A stretch of 64,000 bases of DNA, taken from contig NZ_JDTH01000012.1 of assembly GCF_000710615.1 (NCBI RefSeq), positions 62,001 to 126,000 of the forward strand. The letters run 5' to 3'. Origin of the DNA: Haladaptatus cibarius D43 (GTDB taxonomy: Archaea > Halobacteriota > Halobacteria > Halobacteriales > Haladaptataceae). Positions 1,818-23,001 of the stretch are shown piece after piece. Made by a program: the position numbers and the translations under genes. The number at the start of each line of letters is the position of its first letter. Within the stretch, counting starts at the first letter, position 1. Below the pieces are notes generated by a model. That model ran no database searches, was not told the DNA's origin, and worked only from the letters and a program-made list of their open reading frames with translations.

Positions 1818-3508
1818 TTATTTGTTATTTGCGTGGATCCCTGTTCTGTCGTAGGGATGTCTCCCTGCTCAACTGGACAGTTATTCGACCCACGTGGCAT
1901 CGTAACAACTAGCGGGTCGCGTCCACTGGCGGAGTAGACCACGTCTCTATGCGCAGTCCAGCGGTCATATCGGTCGGTCGTCACCGAAACTGGTGACGAG
2001 GGAAACATCTGTGCTCCGACCGTCGTCCACGACCGCTGTGCGACGATCGCGCAGTTCGGTGCCGACCCACCCTGCTGTAACCACTGATACAGTGGCGTGT
2101 ATCGCGCACTCGTTCGATTCGGATAGTACCTCGACGACATGATGACGATATGGCCGTCGCCGAGCCAACTGTCGTCGATGTGATTCGATGCGAACGACCC
2201 TGTGGAGAGCTCCGAGGGCGTCACCGTGGGCTGTGCGGATGTCGCGTGTAATCCTGCGAACGCGAACGGCGCGCTGACGACCACGCAGAGGATGACGAGT
2301 GGAACGACCGACCGCCGTACCACCGACTGCGACGACCGATATCGATAACCGATGTCCACTGCCGCGATGGCAGCGAGGACGCCCAGTGCGAAGTGTCCAA
2401 ATATCTGCCCCCGAACGGCGAGAGCTTCGTATTCGTGAGTCAGGTTGCCGGTCATTGAGAAGCCAATCAGGGCAAGCGGCCCGGAGAGAAGTCCGACGAT
2501 CACGACCGAGAGGCCGTGGTCGCGTGAGAGTTTCGGAAGTCCCCACGCCGCAACGAGACCGACGAGCGCCACCGGAAGCAGGAATGCCAACTGGAGGAGC
2601 GCCGTCGAGGCCGTTCCGGGGAATATCGGGTAGAAGTGGTTGGCAACCAGCAGTCCGACGACGCCGCCGACGACGCAGACCGGAATGAGTCGCTGGACGA
2701 CACTGCCAGCGGATGGGAGCCAGAGTGCGAGAGTGGCGAGAAGTATCACCCATGCCAGAAAGAGGCCGGGGAGCGCTGTGATGTAACTCGCTTCGGCGAG
2801 TCCGGCCGTCTGGTAGTAGTACAGCATAAATCCCCAGAAGAAGAGGAGAACCGTCGAGCCGAAGACGACGCGTCGCCGCGTCGCCGCGGTTCCGAGCGAC
2901 CGGACGAAGATGGCGAACAAAACGAGCGCGGCGACCATTGAACCGAGATTGTGCGTGAGTGGAAGCGCGACGACGAACGCGACCGTGAGCGCCATCCACG
3001 CCGGACGCTCGGTTCGGAGCGCGCGATAGAACGAGAGCGCCAACAGCACGACGAACGCGTGGCCGAGCATTTCACTGCTGACGGCAGCCGACCGACCGAG
3101 GTAGACGCCCTCGACGGCGAGTATCAGTCCAGCGAGGACGGCTGCAACTCGAGTGTGCGACCGCCTCCATCCGAGTTGGTCACAGATGTGGTACACAAAT
3201 ACCATTGCGGCGAGTGCCGGGACGGTTCCGACGATGGCGACGAGAAACTGTGCGATTGCGAGCGGTTCGACGCCGGTCACTTGGCTGACCGCGGTAAGAT
3301 ACGCGGTGAAGACGTATTCGTCAGGGTTGAGATGTGGGCCGGTTGCGGCGAAGTCGCCGGTCGCGCTCGTCATCCGGGCGAGCGCGGTGAAGTGGAACCC
3401 ATCGACGTTGTACGGCAGTGGCGTCCAGTGGAGGGGCAGGAGTCGCATCGCCACACTCACGAGGCAGACGGCCAGCACTGCGAGGGCGGTTTCACGGCGA
3501 TTACTCAT
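1607..3508 (-). CDS. polytopic membrane protein, GT-C glycosyltransferase-like, with chimeric C-terminus
   Basis: About 560 native residues form a multi-pass membrane protein with a dozen or so predicted helices. It begins MSNRRETALAVLAV. An early lumenal/extracellular loop carries acidic residues (PYNVDGFHF and NPDEYVF), as in GT-C-fold lipid-linked sugar transferases. A soluble extracellular tail follows (residues about 460-560). The ATG chosen overlaps the upstream permease stop as ATGAGTAA, which supports translational coupling. From about 1818 downward the frame runs through P450 sequence in the wrong frame, so the last ~70 residues are not native. The sugar donor and acceptor cannot be told. 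Its place behind the permease genes suggests a role in cell-surface glycosylation or export. Confidence 0.65.
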   Translation of the reverse strand: MSNRRETALAVLAVCLVSVAMRLLPLHWTPLPYNVDGFHFTALARMTSATGDFAATGPHLNPDEYVFTAYLTAVSQVTGVEPLAIAQFLVAIVGTVPALAAMVFVYHICDQLGWRRSHTRVAAVLAGLILAVEGVYLGRSAAVSSEMLGHAFVVLLALSFYRALRTERPAWMALTVAFVVALPLTHNLGSMVAALVLFAIFVRSLGTAATRRRVVFGSTVLLFFWGFMLYYYQTAGLAEASYITALPGLFLAWVILLATLALWLPSAGSVVQRLIPVCVVGGVVGLLVANHFYPIFPGTASTALLQLAFLLPVALVGLVAAWGLPKLSRDHGLSVVIVGLLSGPLALIGFSMTGNLTHEYEALAVRGQIFGHFALGVLAAIAAVDIGYRYRSSQSVVRRSVVPLVILCVVVSAPFAFAGLHATSAQPTVTPSELSTGSFASNHIDDSWLGDGHIVIMSSRYYPNRTSARYTPLYQWLQQGGSAPNCAIVAQRSWTTVGAQMFPSSPVSVTTDRYDRWTAHRDVVYSASGRDPLVVTMPRGSNNCPVEQGDIPTTEQGSTQITNKPSRAINGADSGTFSNHCFIENRLLATETTWLRQHSVVSRRGHQAKHAISNQRCKISPSKFSLRHSSAAS

Positions 3509-6494
3509 CCGGACCACCCCGCGACTCTTCTGGACGGCGCGTCTGTGGCGGCCGGTCGGAGAGGAGCGAATCGGGCGATGCCCTAATGAGCGCACCGGTG
3601 ACGAGTGCCGCGCTGAGGCACATCACGCCCACCCCTGCCGCGACGACACCAATGGCCACGCGAGGGGTGACCGACGGCGTGATTCGAACGCCGTACAGGA
3701 TGAGCAGTCCCGCCTCTGCTAAAAGTGAAACCGCGACCATGGCCACTGCGAACGCGATGACGGTTGCGACGACCCCGACGATCAGTGCGTCGGTGAGGAC
3801 GTGCGCAACGATTTTGACCGGGGACGCGCCCGTCGCGCGGTAGACGCCGACGACGCGGCGACGAGAGTGGATGGTGTACGCGATCGTCGCCGTGGTGCTT
3901 CCGACCGTCATTAGTCCCGCCAGACAGACGAACACGCCGACGAGGAGGTCGAGATCACCGAACGCGGTCGATATGGCGCGACTGATGCCGGTACTGCCGG
4001 TTTCGCCGCTGGTGGCGAGTGCGCTGACGATTCGGTCGTCACCGACGACGCGATAGGTCGTCTCATCGAAGGTTCGTCCGTTGACCGTCGCGCGGACAGG
4101 GTGCGAACCGGGTGCGGCCGGGTTGAGTTCGGTACTGACCGTCGTTTGCTGCCCCGGTGCCAACTGAACCCGGTGGCTGTACTCGTCGGTGCCAGTAATT
4201 GTGACCGTCCGCGACAGCGTCTCGTTCCACGGATTTGTGACTTCAAGTAGCGCCGTCGGCCGCCCGAGGAGCGTTGCTCGGCGCGGCTGAACCCGGAGTT
4301 GACCGACGACCGACCGAGTCGCGGACGGGGAGACGCGAACCGTCTCCATCGCTGTCCCGTTTCCGGCCGTGGCGCGAATTGTCGCGTTCCCCGATTCGCC
4401 GAGTTGGACTCTCGCGGTTCCGTTCGCCTCCGTCGTCGTCTCGTTGTCGCCGACTGAGACAGTTGCGTTTCGCACCGGGTTTCCGGAAACGTCCGTAACG
4501 CGGACGAGGGGCGCACTGTTCGGAGGTGTGCGCTCGGGAATGCCGTGGAGTTCTACAGTGTCGTGCGGGACGATGCGCACGGTTCGCGTCCGGTTAGCGA
4601 CGACGACCTGCTGGCGTCCGAGTCGCGTCGCTCGAAGCCGGACGACCACCGTGCGACGTTCGCCCCCGTCGAGTGAAACCGACCGTGTACGTCGACGGTC
4701 GCCAACCTGCACCGATACGCGACGATTCGTCTGCTCCGAGCCGAGATTCTGTAGCTGGACACGAACCGGAATCGCCGCCCCATTGGAAACGTGCGCTGGC
4801 ACGGAAACCCCGACGATGGCACTGCTCTTCCCGGTTGCCTCGATGCGAGAGTCCGTCCGTACCATTTGAACCATGCCCGAATCGACGCGCGCCAGATGGC
4901 GTGCCGTCGGGAGAGAGACGAGCAGTTGGTCGTCGAACGGTCCCGGTGCGGCGTACGTACCGACTATCGTTACACGGTCGAAGCCGGCCTTCGTGCTTCC
5001 GCCGAGCGTCACGGAGTCGTTCAGCGAGAGGTCGTGTGTTTGTGTAAGGTCGGCTCCGGCAACAGCTTCGTTGGGACCGTTCGGCCGCCGACCGTTGACG
5101 AGTCTCGTGTCCGATACGCGAGAGAACGACGCGAAGCGTACGCCTCGAATCACCATCGGTTCCCCGTCATGGACGCCGAAGGCGAGGATTTCTGGACTTG
5201 CCGTCATCCCACGGTCTTCGAGCGTGTCCGCGTACCCCGTCGGGACGCGGCTAGCGATTAGGTGGTTCGCATTCGAATCTGTAATCGTCGTCCCGCTGGT
5301 TTGAACAAGTGGCGAAACGACGCCCGTAATCGACGCGATGAGGACGACGACGGTTACGAACGCCGCGAGCGGTACGACGCTCGGAACGAGAGTTCGCCAG
5401 TCGAGCAGAGTCAATCGATGCACTCTGCCGAGAACGTCGCCGACGGCGGAACCCCAGCGTGAAGACTTCTGTCGCGGTGCATCCGATGTCGGCGAGCGGC
5501 GCGTAACGTGCCACGCGGCCAAGACGCCCGCGGCCGAGCCAATCGCAACGATGACGGCGTACAGCGGCAGGAGAATCGTCGCGGCGCGCTCGGTCACGCG
5601 AATCGTTAGTGAGGTCGGAACGCCCAGATAGATGGCTGTATTAACGACGACGTTCGTCAAGACGACGCCGACGGCGTATCCGAGCGCGGTTCCGACGGCT
5701 GTGAGAGCGCCTGCCCGAATTCCATATAGACGTAGCAACGTTCCGGGGACACCGCCGGTCGCGCGAACGACGCAAATCGTTCGTCGTCTGTCGCGGGTGT
5801 GCATTCGCGTGACGCCGTACACCGTGATGCCGACGAGGACGCTGGTTCCGACCGCCGTCATCCCCAAGACCGTGATGACTTGCTGAATTCCGGTGAGGAA
5901 GAACGGAAGCGCCGACCGGAGCGGCGTCCTACCGTCGGCGGTCGGTTCCACTGCGTGCGGCGTTGTATCGATGACGAAGACGCCGGTATGGCCAAGTCGG
6001 TTCACGACCGACTCGTCAGCGACGTACCAGTACGGCGGCAGGATACTGTCCGATTCACCACGCGGACTGACGCGAACCGTTTGAGACGCGTTTTCACCGT
6101 CGAGGTTCCGTGTCATCGCCGACCCGACCTCGCCGTTAGTCAAGTCGGAATCGGGCGGGCACGGAACCGAGTAGTCGGTCTTTTCACGGAACTCGCGGGC
6201 TTGCTCGCACGGGACGCCAGCGACCACTGCCGACGTTCCGTTCGGCTCCGTCACTGACGCCACGGGGACGACGAGCGCGTCGTCGTCCGCGGCGGCGCGG
6301 CCCTCGGCCATCGTCTCGTAGTAGGTGGCTTGCCCGCCAGCGTCGTACTCCTCGGCGAGCGTTGTCGTCTGGGTACCCGCGGCCAGCACGACCAGCGTCG
6401 CGCCGGTGAGGAACGCGACGGTCACGACGACGACGAAGATCGCAAGCGCATCGCGCCTTGACCACCGCGTCAGCAGTAGACGTTGGTATCCCAC
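3501..6494 (-). CDS. giant FtsX/MacB-type ABC transporter permease (copy 1)
   Basis: This 997-residue permease starts with the cytoplasmic stretch LLLTRWSRRD and a first helix at about residues 15-38. It then has an extracellular region, a block of three helices (about 200-330) with the FtsX-like signature VVRATGG, another helix near 375-395, and a very long extracellular segment (about 400-840). That segment holds a MacB-like core followed by beta-rich CARDB/Ig-like sequence (NLGSEQTNRRVSVQVG; VRNATVSVGDNETTTEANGTA). Three closing helices include a second signature, VYRATGASP. The GTG start lies 3 bases after the DUF1616 stop. Copy 2 has the same plan. MacB/LolCDE relatives use ATP to move lipoproteins or envelope substrates rather than pumping through the membrane. 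The partner ATPase is probably the one at 7683-8345. Confidence 0.85.
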   Translation of the reverse strand: MGYQRLLLTRWSRRDALAIFVVVVTVAFLTGATLVVLAAGTQTTTLAEEYDAGGQATYYETMAEGRAAADDDALVVPVASVTEPNGTSAVVAGVPCEQAREFREKTDYSVPCPPDSDLTNGEVGSAMTRNLDGENASQTVRVSPRGESDSILPPYWYVADESVVNRLGHTGVFVIDTTPHAVEPTADGRTPLRSALPFFLTGIQQVITVLGMTAVGTSVLVGITVYGVTRMHTRDRRRTICVVRATGGVPGTLLRLYGIRAGALTAVGTALGYAVGVVLTNVVVNTAIYLGVPTSLTIRVTERAATILLPLYAVIVAIGSAAGVLAAWHVTRRSPTSDAPRQKSSRWGSAVGDVLGRVHRLTLLDWRTLVPSVVPLAAFVTVVVLIASITGVVSPLVQTSGTTITDSNANHLIASRVPTGYADTLEDRGMTASPEILAFGVHDGEPMVIRGVRFASFSRVSDTRLVNGRRPNGPNEAVAGADLTQTHDLSLNDSVTLGGSTKAGFDRVTIVGTYAAPGPFDDQLLVSLPTARHLARVDSGMVQMVRTDSRIEATGKSSAIVGVSVPAHVSNGAAIPVRVQLQNLGSEQTNRRVSVQVGDRRRTRSVSLDGGERRTVVVRLRATRLGRQQVVVANRTRTVRIVPHDTVELHGIPERTPPNSAPLVRVTDVSGNPVRNATVSVGDNETTTEANGTARVQLGESGNATIRATAGNGTAMETVRVSPSATRSVVGQLRVQPRRATLLGRPTALLEVTNPWNETLSRTVTITGTDEYSHRVQLAPGQQTTVSTELNPAAPGSHPVRATVNGRTFDETTYRVVGDDRIVSALATSGETGSTGISRAISTAFGDLDLLVGVFVCLAGLMTVGSTTATIAYTIHSRRRVVGVYRATGASPVKIVAHVLTDALIVGVVATVIAFAVAMVAVSLLAEAGLLILYGVRITPSVTPRVAIGVVAAGVGVMCLSAALVTGALIRASPDSLLSDRPPQTRRPEESRGGPDE

Positions 6495-6497
6495 GGC

Positions 6498-7517
6498 TTA
6501 CGCTCGCTCCTGCTGGCGGTGTCCCGATTTGTTCGACGGCGTGACCCACAGATGCGTTTCCTGTTCTGCGTTCTGCATCGTCGGCGTTGATGGCACGTCG
6601 CCCTCGTAGAGCAGGAACGCGAGTCGGTGATTCCGTCCGGTGACGGAAGACGGAACCGAGTAGTCGAGTCGCGTTCGTTCGCCGTCGACGAGGGACGTGT
6701 GCAATCGGTCGAGGGACGTTCGGTTTCGGACTGTCGTCGGGTCGTCTGCCGCGACCTGCTGTTGTTGGACGACGACGGTGTACTGGACGCGACGGTTCTC
6801 GTGGTTCTCGATGCCGACGAACAGTCGCCGTGAACCGTCGCCCGCCGCGACCGTCTGTCCGTCTGCCGGGCCTGCCGCCGACCCGTTTGCGTCAAGGAGC
6901 GACAGTTCCGTATACGACTCCGTCTCGTCGAGCCCGGCGAGCGCGAAGCCAATACTTCCGACCGACGCGAGGATGAGGACGACGAGGACGACGTTTAAGC
7001 GTCGGTCGAGACGCGTTCCCGAATCCGGCTCAGGACGCCGGATACCCGCTACCCAATCGCGCGGCGAGAACCAACCAGATTCGTCTTCTGAGCGGTCGGC
7101 GACCCTTCGACGTCGAACTGCGGCGATTGCTGCGGCGATGACGGTGCAGGTGCTCACTGCGACCGCTACCGGGGTCGCCCAGATACCGATCCCGACCTGC
7201 GTCAGTGCCAGCGCAATGCCCGCGACGACGAGAACGCTGGTTCCGACGGCGAACACGAACCGTTCCAATCCGCCCAATTGCTCTTCGACGACATCACGTC
7301 GGAGAGTAGTTCCACCACCGTCCGTCGGAAACAGGGCCGCGACGACGGCGTAGCCAGGCAAAAAGCAGAGCAGTGGAAGCGTCACGAGGGGCCGAATTGG
7401 CTCTTCGCGCAGTAGCGGCGTGAATGGTGCGACGACCGCGAGAACAGAAAACCCGCACACGAAAAGTAGGTCGATGGACGAACCGGCGGCTTGGCGCAGA
7501 CGAGAGGCGGGGCTCAT
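6498..7517 (-). CDS. DUF1616 membrane protein (copy 1)
   Basis: This 339-residue protein has four hydrophobic helices in the first half, including the family motif LCFLPGYAVVAALFP. A further helix (about 165-185) is followed by an extracellular beta-rich domain ending THLWVTPSN. These features match the DUF1616 family of archaeal envelope proteins, which has no proven function. It sits between the ATPase and permease copy 1, with three bases separating it from the permease start. A second DUF1616 protein at 34828-35826 shares the same PGYAVVAALFP and THLWV segments. The ATG follows a 165-base gap after the ATPase gene, so it may have its own promoter. Confidence 0.8.
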   Translation of the reverse strand: MSPASRLRQAAGSSIDLLFVCGFSVLAVVAPFTPLLREEPIRPLVTLPLLCFLPGYAVVAALFPTDGGGTTLRRDVVEEQLGGLERFVFAVGTSVLVVAGIALALTQVGIGIWATPVAVAVSTCTVIAAAIAAVRRRRVADRSEDESGWFSPRDWVAGIRRPEPDSGTRLDRRLNVVLVVLILASVGSIGFALAGLDETESYTELSLLDANGSAAGPADGQTVAAGDGSRRLFVGIENHENRRVQYTVVVQQQQVAADDPTTVRNRTSLDRLHTSLVDGERTRLDYSVPSSVTGRNHRLAFLLYEGDVPSTPTMQNAEQETHLWVTPSNKSGHRQQERA

Positions 7518-17551: not shown

Positions 17552-18973
17552 TTACGCACGCACCTGCCGGACGGACGTGAGGATGGTTTCGATTCGGTCG
17601 CCCGGCCCGACTTCGAACGCCGAAGTTTGCGGATACGAACCGAGCGTCCGTCGGAATCGCTCGAATGAGACGTACTCCGAGTAGGTTTCATCGAGCGTGG
17701 AGAGGCCGTCTGGGTCGAAGAGAACGGTCGGCGCGAGAAACGCGTTCGTCTGCCTCGCCCGCCAACTCGTATACTGGACGCAGTTTCGAACCTCTGTTCG
17801 GTGCACATCCGACGTGAACAACGCGACGTACACGTCTTCGGAGTGGCGTTCGACGTGGGAACGGACGGCCTTGAACAGAGGGTCGTCCGCCGCGGAGGTC
17901 GTATCGCCCCGAGTCAGAAGATACGGTCGGATTCGTGCCGCGAACAGAGATCCGTCGTCCGGTAGTGTTCGCTGTCCGCGAGACGTGTCGTCGGTCGAAC
18001 GGCACTCGACACTGGGGGAAGCGCCGTCGTCCACATCGAGCGAGTAGAGCGCCTTCCGAACCGCCGCGTATTGCTCCGGCGTCGAGCGAAACGAACGACT
18101 GACGGTGACGCCGTCGGAGCCCACGGCGAACAGTCCAACCGCATCCGAGCGTTCGTGGGCTTCGGCGACGAGCGCGAGTGCGGCCTCCCTGAGGTACGCG
18201 AACTGCGTTTCGCCGGGGCGACCGCTTCCTACCGACGGACGATGGTCGATGAATATTGCGACCCGGCGATCCGGTTCGTTCTCGTACTCGCGGATGTGCG
18301 GGTAGTCGAATCTGGCCGTCGCGTTCCAATCTATCCGGCGGAGGCTGTCGCCGGTTTTGTACTCACGTATCTCGACCGTGGGCTGACCGTGGACGTTTCG
18401 TTCAGCATCTTCGTCGTCGTAGACGCTGTACGTTCGCTTACCGCCTCGTCCGACGTGGACGTTTGCGGGCGTTCGCTGTTCGACTGTAACGGTCGGTTCG
18501 TCGCCTTGTTTCCACCGCGCCGTCAACAATCCATGGCCGTCGGTAACTTCGACCGCGCACTCCTCGAACGAGACTGTTCCGGCGGTCGGAAATTCGACCG
18601 AATACGTCGTCGTTGCCGCCGTCTCGTCCGCGCCAAAGATCACGGTTCGATTCGCCGTCTCTGCTCCACGACCGGAAATCGGTGGGCGCGATTCGACCGT
18701 CACCTCGAACGCGGTTCGACGCGCCAGTGACGCGTCGAGAGTGACCGACAGCGGCGCGTCTGTCGGAATCGAGGGCTGTGAAATCGACTGCGAGACCGTT
18801 AGCTCGTCCGGTAGTCGTTCGAGCTCTACTACGAACGAGTAATAGTGGTAGAGGAGCCAACAGGCGACTCCCACGGTGCCGAAGACGAGTGACGGCCGGG
18901 CGAAGACGACTGCTAACACGGAGAACGAGAGTGCGGTTACGGCGACTATCCACTGACGACGAGTCGCGTACAT
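17552..18973 (-). CDS. DUF58 protein, MoxR partner
   Basis: A 473-residue protein with two N-terminal helices (about 7-45), a beta-rich middle, and the DUF58 core GDSLRRIDWNATAR near residue 210. A VWA-like fold follows (VAIFIDHRPS; LVAEAHERSDAVGLF). DUF58 proteins are the usual partners of MoxR ATPases. The ATG giving MYATRRQW was preferred over a GTG four codons earlier. It heads the minus-strand triplet and is divergent from the DUF4129 gene, so the roughly 300-base gap between them probably holds both promoters. Confidence 0.88.
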   Translation of the reverse strand: MYATRRQWIVAVTALSFSVLAVVFARPSLVFGTVGVACWLLYHYYSFVVELERLPDELTVSQSISQPSIPTDAPLSVTLDASLARRTAFEVTVESRPPISGRGAETANRTVIFGADETAATTTYSVEFPTAGTVSFEECAVEVTDGHGLLTARWKQGDEPTVTVEQRTPANVHVGRGGKRTYSVYDDEDAERNVHGQPTVEIREYKTGDSLRRIDWNATARFDYPHIREYENEPDRRVAIFIDHRPSVGSGRPGETQFAYLREAALALVAEAHERSDAVGLFAVGSDGVTVSRSFRSTPEQYAAVRKALYSLDVDDGASPSVECRSTDDTSRGQRTLPDDGSLFAARIRPYLLTRGDTTSAADDPLFKAVRSHVERHSEDVYVALFTSDVHRTEVRNCVQYTSWRARQTNAFLAPTVLFDPDGLSTLDETYSEYVSFERFRRTLGSYPQTSAFEVGPGDRIETILTSVRQVRA

Positions 18974-19269
18974 CACTCTGAACACCTGATGGGGATAGTT
19001 AATTCGTTCACATCGTTCCGGTGGTAAGTGGCGCTTTCCCGCCCACCGTAGACGGCATCCCTGTTACGAGCGATGATCGAGCGGTCGCGGCAGTGTTACT
19101 CCGGCCCGAACCAGCGATAGACCGGTCTTACTGCCCCCAACGAACCTTCAGTTTTAAGCACGGGTCTGGCTTATCCCGCCTTCACGCGGCGGTCGAAACG
19201 AAGACGCACGAGGGAAGGGGAACCGTCGAACAGTCACGAAAGACGGTCGAGACGAACTGCTCGATAGCC

Positions 19270-21402: not shown

Positions 21403-21655
21403 GTACGATTTCCGCCATGTGCTGTCGAGTCGAAACCGATAGTAGGCGGCGAAACCAGGTGAATCCGGTGATTTGTGCTCATTGGATGAGGAGGTAGCGA
21501 AGTTGGACGAAATAAATGAAAGGTTATGTGGGGATTGTACGATGTCGGCAAAACAGAAACGGTGGCTAAACTCCTGTCGCCCGCTTTCTGCGACGTTGTA
21601 GCTCTCGTTACGCCCGAAATGTTGAAGTCACAACAGATGGTGCATCGATACTCCA

Positions 21656-21805
21656 ATGGAAAGTCAAGACGACCAAGTGCGGCGCGGTACAAAACATCTC
21701 CACGACGTCGGAGATGGCAGCGGTTGCACCGAAATATGGGAGCATCTGAGCGACCGACGTGCGGAGAACGAGAGGTCGGACGATGAGGAGGATGACCACC
21801 AATGA
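21656..21805 (+). CDS. 49-residue acidic protein coupled to the SQD1-like gene
   Basis: The frame encodes MESQDDQVRRGTKHLHDVG, then GDGSGCTEIWEHLSDRRAE and an Asp/Glu/His tail. It has a normal ATG, and its stop overlaps the next gene's start as ATGA, the classic haloarchaeal coupling arrangement. The central GCTEIWEHLS segment looks like a short conserved motif with one Cys. I do not recognise a family. Codon use matches its neighbours. Its position suggests an accessory subunit or regulator of the synthase that follows. Confidence 0.65.
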   Translation: MESQDDQVRRGTKHLHDVGDGSGCTEIWEHLSDRRAENERSDDEEDDHQ

Positions 21806-23001
21806 CGATTCTCGTCACCGGCGGCGACGGGTACGTCGGTTGGCCGACGGCGCTCCGAATCGCCGACCGAACTGACCAGCGCGTCATCAGCGTGGACAAC
21901 TGCGGACGACGACGGTGGGTCGAAGAAGTCGGGTGCCACAGCGCCGTTCCGGTTGCTGGTCCCGAAGAACGCGTCGAAGCCGCGCACAACCAACTCGACG
22001 TGACGAACCTCTCGTTCGTTCGCGCCGATTTGGTAGACCAGTCGGCCGTCGAGGAACTCCTCGCCGTCCACGAACCCGACGTTATCGTACACACGGCCGC
22101 ACAGCCGTCTGCACCGTATTCCCAAATCAACGGCGAGCGGGCGAACTACACCCAACACAACAACCTTCAATCGACCCGAAATCTCCTGTGGGGACTCGAA
22201 GAGCAGGGACTCACCGACACGCACTTCATCGAGACGACGACGACCGGCGTCTATGGCGCTCCTGACTTTCCCATTCCGGAAGGCGGCGCGACGATGGTAA
22301 ACGGCGGCGAGCGAGACGAAGTGCCGTTTCCGGCGATGGCCGGAAGCTGGTACCACCTCACGAAATCGCACGACGCCGCGAATTTGCGACTAGCGCACAC
22401 CCAGTTCGATATTCCGATTAGCGACGTTCGGACGGCCATCATCTACGGAACCGAAACCGAGGAGACCAGAGGGTCGAGCGAGTTAAAGACACGCTTCGAC
22501 TTCGACTACTACTTTGGAACCGTCGTCCACCGATTCTGCGCGCAGGCAGTCGCCGGGTATCCGCTGACGGTGTACGGCAAAGGCGAACAGCGAAAACCGT
22601 TTGCCAGCCTCGAAGACACCGTCGAAGGTCTCGCACGACTCGCACTCGACGACGCCGATGCTCGCTCGGACGACTTCGTGGTGTACAACCAAGTGACGCG
22701 AGCAATCAGCATCGTCGAAATCGCCGAAACCATCGCTGACGTGGCCGGAGAGTCCGGCTTCGACACGTCCGTCGAGCACGTCGAGAATCCTCGGGACGAG
22801 GACGAGACGCACGCTATGGAGATAGAGAACGACCGGTACCTATCGCTCATCGGCGACCAGCGACAGACGTTCGAAGACGGTATTCGGGACGTGATGAAGT
22901 CGCTCAATCGACATGCGGATCGAATTGAATCTCATGAAGACCGCTTCGTTCCGGACGTACTCAAAGAGCGAGCCGAAGCGACGGCAGAATCGCAGGACTA
23001 G
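21802..23001 (+). CDS. NAD-dependent nucleotide-sugar synthase, SQD1 (UDP-sulfoquinovose synthase)-like
   Basis: A 399-residue extended SDR enzyme. The NAD-binding motif is GGDGYVGWPTALR, in which GYxGWPTA is characteristic of the SQD1 family. HTAAQPSAPYSQ, the catalytic Thr region ETTTTGVYG, and a YxxxK (WYHLTKSHD) follow. SQD1/Agl3-type enzymes form UDP-sulfoquinovose from UDP-glucose and sulfite. A haloarchaeal relative acts in an alternative N-glycosylation pathway of Haloferax volcanii. Membership of the family is clear; the substrate here is inferred. It is preceded by the coupled 49-residue protein, and a sulfatase-family gene lies in the same glycan region. Confidence 0.85.
   Translation: MTILVTGGDGYVGWPTALRIADRTDQRVISVDNCGRRRWVEEVGCHSAVPVAGPEERVEAAHNQLDVTNLSFVRADLVDQSAVEELLAVHEPDVIVHTAAQPSAPYSQINGERANYTQHNNLQSTRNLLWGLEEQGLTDTHFIETTTTGVYGAPDFPIPEGGATMVNGGERDEVPFPAMAGSWYHLTKSHDAANLRLAHTQFDIPISDVRTAIIYGTETEETRGSSELKTRFDFDYYFGTVVHRFCAQAVAGYPLTVYGKGEQRKPFASLEDTVEGLARLALDDADARSDDFVVYNQVTRAISIVEIAETIADVAGESGFDTSVEHVENPRDEDETHAMEIENDRYLSLIGDQRQTFEDGIRDVMKSLNRHADRIESHEDRFVPDVLKERAEATAESQD

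Follow-up and report, generated by a model that had tools for sequence, protein, structure and literature searches.

What is the task of a 49-residue protein whose gene overlaps the start of an SQD1-like UDP-sulfoquinovose synthase gene? This question is raised by a locus of the haloarchaeon Haladaptatus cibarius D43, from which we analysed a window of 64,000 nucleotides (assembly GCF_000710615.1, contig NZ_JDTH01000012.1, positions 62,001 to 126,000 of the forward strand; unprefixed coordinates below refer to this window). A preliminary description of the small open reading frame (ORF) at 21656-21805 on the forward strand had proposed a subunit or a sulfur or substrate carrier of the synthase, or a translation-coupling leader in front of it. 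Here, we report that the ORF is a real gene and that it belongs to an undescribed, unnamed family of haloarchaeal small proteins without a model in Pfam or NCBIfam, the genes of which adjoin a reductase with NIR_SIR domains more often than SQD1. Any gene of this family (HL..GxGCTEIWE.LS..R haloarchaeal small proteins) is referred to as a small gene throughout.

Results

Translation from the ATG at 21656 yielded MESQDDQVRRGTKHLHDVGDGSGCTEIWEHLSDRRAENERSDDEEDDHQ*, an acidic protein of 49 amino acids (aa) with a single cysteine (Cys24, codon 21725-21727). Its TGA stop codon sits inside an ATGA tetranucleotide (21802-21805), the ATG of which, at 21802, begins the 399-aa SQD1-like ORF; length, start codon, lone cysteine and overlap were all as previously described. 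GC contents of 0.73/0.37/0.61 at the first, second and third codon positions (0.67/0.42/0.72 in the SQD1-like gene) fit a coding sequence, but the haloarchaeal codon use that had been ascribed to the ORF is only moderately marked. Since Markov shuffling of the 400 bp upstream yielded an ATG-initiated frame of 49 or more codons closing in that ATGA in 3.65% of cases, the local evidence for a gene is weak to modest. The gene is nevertheless confirmed because it is conserved across genomes and because its core is, judging from substitution counts, under purifying selection. Relatives were found in 23 of 28 genomes of the host's taxonomic family, its own genome counted (single-sequence search, E ≤ 0.1), and a profile built from 18 members detected the family in 365 of 391 sampled Halobacteria genomes (E ≤ 0.01), which are not phylogenetically independent. 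Among the 26 genomes without a small gene, 20 were listed directly and six were deduced by their absence among the listed matches. In the 22-codon core from His14 to Arg35 (21695-21760), the proportions of synonymous differences (pS) between the window and two congeners are 0.61 and 0.71, those of nonsynonymous differences (pN) 0.07 and 0.08. A chance ORF is ruled out by these figures together with the relatives. The SQD1-like gene of Haladaptatus salinisoli is preceded by a relative with the identical four-nucleotide overlap; this relative is nameless but annotated as a coding sequence (WP_227356317.1), so the earlier remark that such a gene is easy to miss holds only partly.

The family core reads HLxxVxxGxGCTEIWExLSxxR with a near-invariant cysteine, and the window protein carries the full 22-residue core including G-x-G-C-[TAV]-E-I-W-E and the arginine at +11 from the cysteine. 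Counted from the cysteine, 175 distinct members have His at -10 (97%), Leu at -9 (95%), Gly at -3 (99%) and -1 (100%), Glu at +2 (99%), Ile at +3 (96%), Trp at +4 (100%), Glu at +5 (97%), Leu at +7 (95%) and Arg at +11 (100%); these percentages are inflated, since members were selected by score (at least 30 bits) and by an expression demanding Cys and Trp, which 218 of 220 family matches satisfied. One cysteine is present in 110 of these members, two in 55 and three in ten, and lengths span 34-84 aa with a median of 47 (start codons chosen by us). Known protein families were ruled out: 39 members gave chance-level matches only in Pfam and NCBIfam, the 49-aa protein alone found nothing in PHROGs, and its comparison with Protein Data Bank sequences was equally negative (best E 0.91). 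A phage origin was discarded, as there was no match in the phage collection. Neither the family motif strings nor two neighbour DUF names occurred in the PMC full text searched, and four plasmid records label the product 'hypothetical protein'. An AlphaFold2 model of the 49-aa protein (mean pLDDT 83, pTM 0.48) contains helices at residues 4-11 and 24-48, the latter beginning at Cys24, with a mean pLDDT of 93 for residues 21-30. Cysteines at helix starts are typical of activated thiols, and the model suggests that the thiol of Cys24 may be activated.

Which enzymes accompany the family? A genome-collection scan gave 135 confirmed loci, of which 80, chosen by the pattern EIWE[HR]LS[ED], were kept as named loci; all bear haloarchaeal or halophilic-archaeal titles. 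Their commonest neighbour within 5 kb was the NIR_SIR reductase (55 loci), compared with SQD1 in seven and a TrmB-type regulator as the only marker in eight. The small gene is divergent from the reductase within about 1.5 kb in 53 of the 55 loci, the others being L071 (4.7 kb) and L124 (same strand). The source genome itself holds, besides the window copy, a paralogue (G000:C2:854244-854342) that is divergent from a reductase, followed by a gene resembling CbiX by eye. Because 55 named loci adjoin the reductase and only seven SQD1, the small protein is not specific to SQD1; a role as partner of the sulfosugar enzyme alone is therefore rejected, and the directly upstream, same-strand position of the window copy is found in only two of 33 SQD1-linked loci.

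To narrow down the substrate of this reductase, we compared one position of its sequence. Plant nitrite reductase (NiR) chains read NLPRKWN, and the tobacco chain set includes both KWN and KWK, the latter presumably being engineered Asn226Lys variants. We take E. coli sulfite reductase to carry Lys at the position of plant NiR Asn226, and this residue to be tied to sulfite use. All 14 loci retrieved by the reductase itself (at least 70% identity) showed KWK, with Lys at the plant-NiR Asn position, together with a small gene. Three KWK loci retrieved via the small gene brought the total to 17 loci with 16 distinct genes (L152 and L283 hold the same gene); L064, L071, L124 and L283 were retrieved via the small gene and thus contain it by construction, and the fragment L162 was left out as it does not cover the position. 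The eight paralogues at 52-57% identity all read KFN, with no small gene in the 1.5 kb on either side; one of the eight (L155) belongs to a genome without any small gene. On these eight loci, a partnership with Asn-type, nitrite-like reductases was rejected. Eight more distant reductases (42-49% identity) carry Lys (KFK, KLK or KYK), and three of them are accompanied by a small gene: L160, L124 and L170, where the gene is weak since cut and reaches 38 bits in the longer region L312. This residue pattern suggests that the partner, a Lys-type reductase, acts on sulfite.

The surroundings of L160 were read in L303, which covers the same gene (G154, 2039-7168). They form a compact sulfur cluster of a rhodanese-NIR_SIR fusion, an FrhB-like iron-sulfur (FeS) protein, the small gene, a protein with a PAPS_reduct domain, an NAD_binding_7 protein that weakly matches sirohaem synthase, and a pair of genes resembling, by eye, uroporphyrinogen methyltransferase and CbiX. 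Rhodanese fusions of halobacterial NirA are noted in an earlier study (PMC11237513). As a separate observation, the PAPS_reduct-domain protein occurs here despite the statement, in the 2012 Natrinema genome paper, that the adenylylsulfate/phosphoadenylylsulfate (APS/PAPS) route is missing from sequenced haloarchaea (PMC3402447).

The link to the reductase was also evident at the level of whole genomes. All 267 reductase-positive genomes (E ≤ 1e-250) possess a small gene, as do 98 of the 124 reductase-negative ones, and the reductase is found in none of the 26 genomes without a small gene (Fisher 1.5e-14, kinship ignored). This threshold was picked after a smaller check at E ≤ 1e-10 and misses split or lower-scoring copies. 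The check covered 40 hand-chosen main genomes, 20 listed as small-negative and 20 as small-positive, plus G009 and G014; a reductase homologue was present in 19 of the 20 positive and two of the 20 negative genomes (G281 and G306, about 50-55% identity). G009 and G014 lie outside the class sample and had no small gene in the single-sequence search: the former holds the reductase as two pieces only, in different frames (L314, G009:C1:181050-182077), and the latter showed no reductase homologue at E ≤ 1e-10. In 56 genomes, a small gene is present while SQD1 and this reductase (at E ≤ 1e-250) are both missing. A NIR_SIR homologue at E ≤ 1e-60 occurs in 43 of these 56, and in ten of the 43 a reductase match sits no more than about 1.5 kb from a small gene: G364, G029, G400 and G154, plus G149, G196, G225, G075, G201 and G365, where it consists of split, high-identity pieces. 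Family scores are weak in seven of the 13 remaining, partnerless genomes compared with four of the 43 others (p = 0.0015, with the cut chosen afterwards), and a rank test of the scores was non-significant (p = 0.07); a decay of the small gene in these 13 genomes is at most suggested.

SQD1 is the second partner of the small gene, after the reductase. The window gene (21802-23001, forward strand) matches the NCBIfam model NF041015 with E 5.5e-107 and 358 bits, under the cut-off of 575, and the haloarchaeal SQD1 of L111 likewise scores 324 bits. According to a previous study, haloarchaeal synthases form their own cluster, distant from other synthases (PMC4388408). The Arabidopsis SQD1 structure 1qrr matches the window protein with E 6e-73; in the triad of short-chain dehydrogenases/reductases, the YxxxK motif YHLTK aligns with YHLSK of Arabidopsis SQD1, and a Thr in ETTTTGVYG with the active-site Thr of KLGTMGEYG. 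An SQD1-like gene occurs in 155 of 391 genomes (E ≤ 1e-100), and 153 of these also contain a small gene somewhere. Among reductase-negative genomes, the small gene is present in 42 of 44 with SQD1 vs 56 of 80 without it (p = 4e-4). We read 76 SQD1 loci, namely every second of the first 149 listed matches (75, window included) and G048; five of the regions end at contig ends. A small gene lies within 6 kb in 33 of them, whereas fewer than one would be expected by chance in the approximately 1 Mb of DNA concerned (our estimate, from 1-3 members per 3-4 Mb genome). Its arrangement varies: directly upstream on the same strand in two (window and L232), divergent at 148-373 bp in nine, divergent at about 1-1.26 kb in nine and on the same strand 2.9-5.4 kb downstream in 13.

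Within the genus, the arrangement seen in the window recurs, which is what the preliminary description had asked for as confirmation: an ATGA-coupled CTEIWEHLS frame precedes the orthologous synthase in four other Haladaptatus genomes (L003, L004, L026 and L028). In a fifth (L029), the frame is a CVEIWE variant that lies about 170 bp ahead of the synthase gene and does not overlap it. In the remaining three Haladaptatus genomes, SQD1 was looked at only in loci matched by the small-protein search. Two side observations concern DUF58. In the window, SQD1 has a DUF58 gene nearby (17552-18985). On plasmid pNVE414 of Natrinema versiforme (L319), a DUF58 gene occurs with a MoxR ATPase, and the position that SQD1 occupies in G323 is taken by an epimerase-family gene, from which the small gene is divergent.

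The core also appears in larger proteins. Six stop-to-stop frames of 289-350 aa (L304-L309, from G002, G011, G008 (twice), G103 and G116) have, by eye, the small-protein motif N-terminally, right before a twin-arginine-like segment, and end in a Cys-rich C-terminus. L307 passes the model TIGR04449 halocin_C8_dom (36 bits, cut-off 24), and models of twin-arginine translocation (Tat) signals come near but under their cut-offs in L304 and L305. Because these frames score only 18-37 bits against the family profile, common descent with the small proteins is likely but not certain. By eye, the 49-aa protein has neither a Tat signal nor a Cys-rich C-terminal peptide and shares only the N-terminal segment.

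Discussion

Since small genes often adjoin two kinds of enzymes thought to consume sulfite, their product is probably a sulfite or sulfur helper. More specifically, we tentatively suggest, at slightly less than an even chance, that the 49-aa protein is a stand-alone, probably cytoplasmic single-Cys accessory or relay protein of sulfite metabolism. The subunit or carrier role proposed at the outset stays viable, with the conserved Cys and the association with sulfite enzymes speaking for it. The data above show the gene, its family and its conservation as well as the linkage and co-occurrence with the enzymes; for the substrate of the reductase, the docking, the Cys adduct and the direction of transfer, we infer the following steps. 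The Lys-type reductase would consume sulfite; a DGxG loop would position the Cys where an amphipathic helix begins, a placement that may activate its thiol; the helix face (IWExLSxxR) could dock on the enzyme; and the Cys would bind sulfite or sulfur, in an S-sulfonate or persulfide adduct, and hold it or pass it on. Alternatively, the Cys protein might guard free sulfite at the enzyme. A more far-reaching version, which we regard as rather doubtful, would see the family as a sulfite or sulfur shuttle made of a protein of about 50 residues, spread throughout the class and without relation to DsrC or TusA. It would serve siroheme-reductase reduction as well as SQD1 sulfonation, with paralogues for each branch, and its module would also have been captured as the pre-Tat segment of halocin C8-like antimicrobial precursors.

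But could the Cys serve something other than sulfur carriage? A TrmB-type gene adjoins the small gene in 13 of the 80 named loci, eight without SQD1 and five of the seven with it (L097, L099, L100, L104 and L111, but not L107 and L135 of Haladaptatus), and a TrmB-like gene is, by eye, part of the cluster at three more SQD1 loci read gene by gene (L245, L238 and L280). A regulatory role is thus possible, in which the Cys would sense sulfite, sulfide or redox state and the protein would modulate a regulator or the enzymes; the small, acidic and mostly single-Cys nature of the family is compatible with this. We nevertheless consider such a thiol-based regulator unlikely, as no DNA-binding domain was found in the small protein, the TrmB marker is absent from all 55 reductase loci in the census, no TrmB-like gene was seen by eye around the window gene (L281), and the window copy overlaps an enzyme gene rather than a regulator gene. 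The ATGA overlap, which occurs with SQD1 in the window and with the start of a CbiX homologue in four Haladaptatus loci (L064, L065, L076 and L117), and a helix-forming core with conserved Trp and Arg would equally suit a structural subunit or assembly chaperone of both enzymes, with the Cys acting in folding or cofactor insertion (e.g. of siroheme or FeS). We judge this idea no less improbable: many SQD1 loci and the eight Asn-type reductase loci have no small gene nearby, and since SQD1 contains neither siroheme nor FeS, a cofactor role cannot account for both partners.

The six halocin C8-like frames, one of them above the TIGR04449 cut-off, raise yet another thought, namely that the motif is a leader or docking module recognised by a shared partner (a protease, redox enzyme or chaperone), in trans as the small protein and in cis in Tat precursors. 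A study on Nif11 and nitrile-hydratase-like leaders offers a precedent, since there, too, a family with another role was reused in peptide precursors (PMC2887384). Unlike in Nif11, the segment here stands ahead of a Tat-like signal in halocin C8-like proteins, and our data revealed no modification enzyme; we claim no sequence relation. This explanation appears quite improbable to us given the uncertain descent, the stand-alone members often found at sulfite-type enzymes and the lack of a common partner gene, although no systematic search for one was made. Hardly credible, finally, is a translation-coupling leader peptide without function as a protein, as had been considered for the synthase: the ATGA overlap in the window and in H. 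salinisoli fits it, but the conserved peptide sequence, apparently under purifying selection, and the members that are divergent or 2.9-5.4 kb downstream, and so do not precede the enzyme gene, contradict it.

Several findings weigh against the proposed accessory or relay protein of sulfite metabolism. The partner reductase stays below the cut-off of every NCBIfam model listed, its best match being the ferredoxin--nitrite reductase model (435.2 bits, cut-off 594), and it reaches only 144.7 bits with the sulfite-reductase equivalog TIGR02042 sir (cut-off 731.5). Ten of the 80 named loci show none of the seven markers, and the eight TrmB-only loci lack both enzymes. In 13 of 391 genomes, a small gene occurs although SQD1 (E ≤ 1e-100) and any reductase homologue (E ≤ 1e-60) are both missing; conversely, two of the 155 SQD1 genomes (G048 and G324) lack any small gene, and 43 of the 76 SQD1 loci have none in the stretch read (up to 6-kb flanks), so that SQD1 can function without a linked small gene. 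Halocin C8-like proteins, which have no known sulfite link, contain the module as well, ahead of Tat-like signals. Chemically, a thiol needs a disulfide or an oxidant in order to capture sulfite.

How does the family compare with known systems? DsrC, TusE and TusA are small cytoplasmic proteins with a conserved Cys that occur beside sulfite reductases or act in sulfur transfer; the Cys lies in the C-terminal arm of DsrC and in the CPxP motif of TusA. The small family resembles all three as a small Cys protein at sulfite-type enzymes, but its 39 scanned members match no Pfam or NCBIfam profile beyond chance and, unlike in DsrC and TusA, there is usually one Cys at a predicted helix start. In plants, ferredoxin-dependent glutamate synthase, a large flavoenzyme, supplies sulfite to SQD1. 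The two were found in a complex (PMC4388408). The haloarchaeal case is similar in that a second protein is tied to SQD1 and different in that this protein has 49 aa and one Cys. In size, host and possession of Cys, the family is also reminiscent of the C(P)XCG micro-proteins of Haloferax, described as haloarchaeal proteins of less than 70 aa with cysteines (PMC11241148); the differing point is the single Cys in 110 of 175 members.

Little is known of haloarchaeal hydrogen sulfide production, according to the Natrinema genome paper (PMC3402447). Being very small, conserved and linked to both enzymes, the protein would offer a simple genetic handle on this process and on the sulfite supply of SQD1. 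In the loci read, the small gene went with Lys-type and not with Asn-type reductases and might thus help to separate sulfite from nitrite reductases, and annotation would gain an unnamed family present in most of the sampled Halobacteria genomes.

Additional observations

Gene-by-gene neighbourhood lists are approximate, as they rest on an ad hoc filter for acidic, low-Arg ORFs with some wrong starts, and ORF clustering across the named loci was swamped by shadow ORFs of the high-GC DNA. Nine of the 55 reductase loci feature a CbiX homologue within 5 kb. In L071, from Haloferacaceae archaeon XH8, CbiX begins a few bases after the small gene. A small gene on a Natrinema zhouii plasmid is an exception, with no named sulfite gene within 5 kb, and so is that of G017, located between an MFS_3 transporter and an M32 peptidase. 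Twenty further regions were read in genomes that lack this reductase and SQD1; most of them contain neither partner, and in several the small gene stands, by eye, beside DUF6360-like genes and a 'RESPVGxPVIRGD' protein that likewise turns up at reductase loci. In the TrmB-only loci (L067, L074, L075, L077, L084, L105, L118 and L140), the small gene lies beside a divergent TrmB-type regulator, in some cases in surroundings that look glycan-like by eye.

Upstream of the small ORF in the window, a CGTTACGCCC..AAT.TTGAAG stretch (21606-21627, forward strand) is largely kept in three aligned Haladaptatus genomes and may be a control element. Between reductase and small gene, L110 and other reductase loci encode a protein of about 110 aa with multiple Cys (HQLDxGAWISVNDSR...CxxCG); its copy in L110 (9340-9678, reverse strand) matched nothing in Pfam or NCBIfam. 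Another very short ORF, recognised by the motif R[QED]H[AVT][SP]ADVAPEL[YF], had no Pfam match in one example and was seen in none of the 33 SQD1-linked loci. Of the 55 reductase loci, 31 have it ahead of the small gene (e.g. L066, L102 and L087); it lies 127-236 bp before the small-gene stop in the listed examples and is fused in frame with the small gene in L096.
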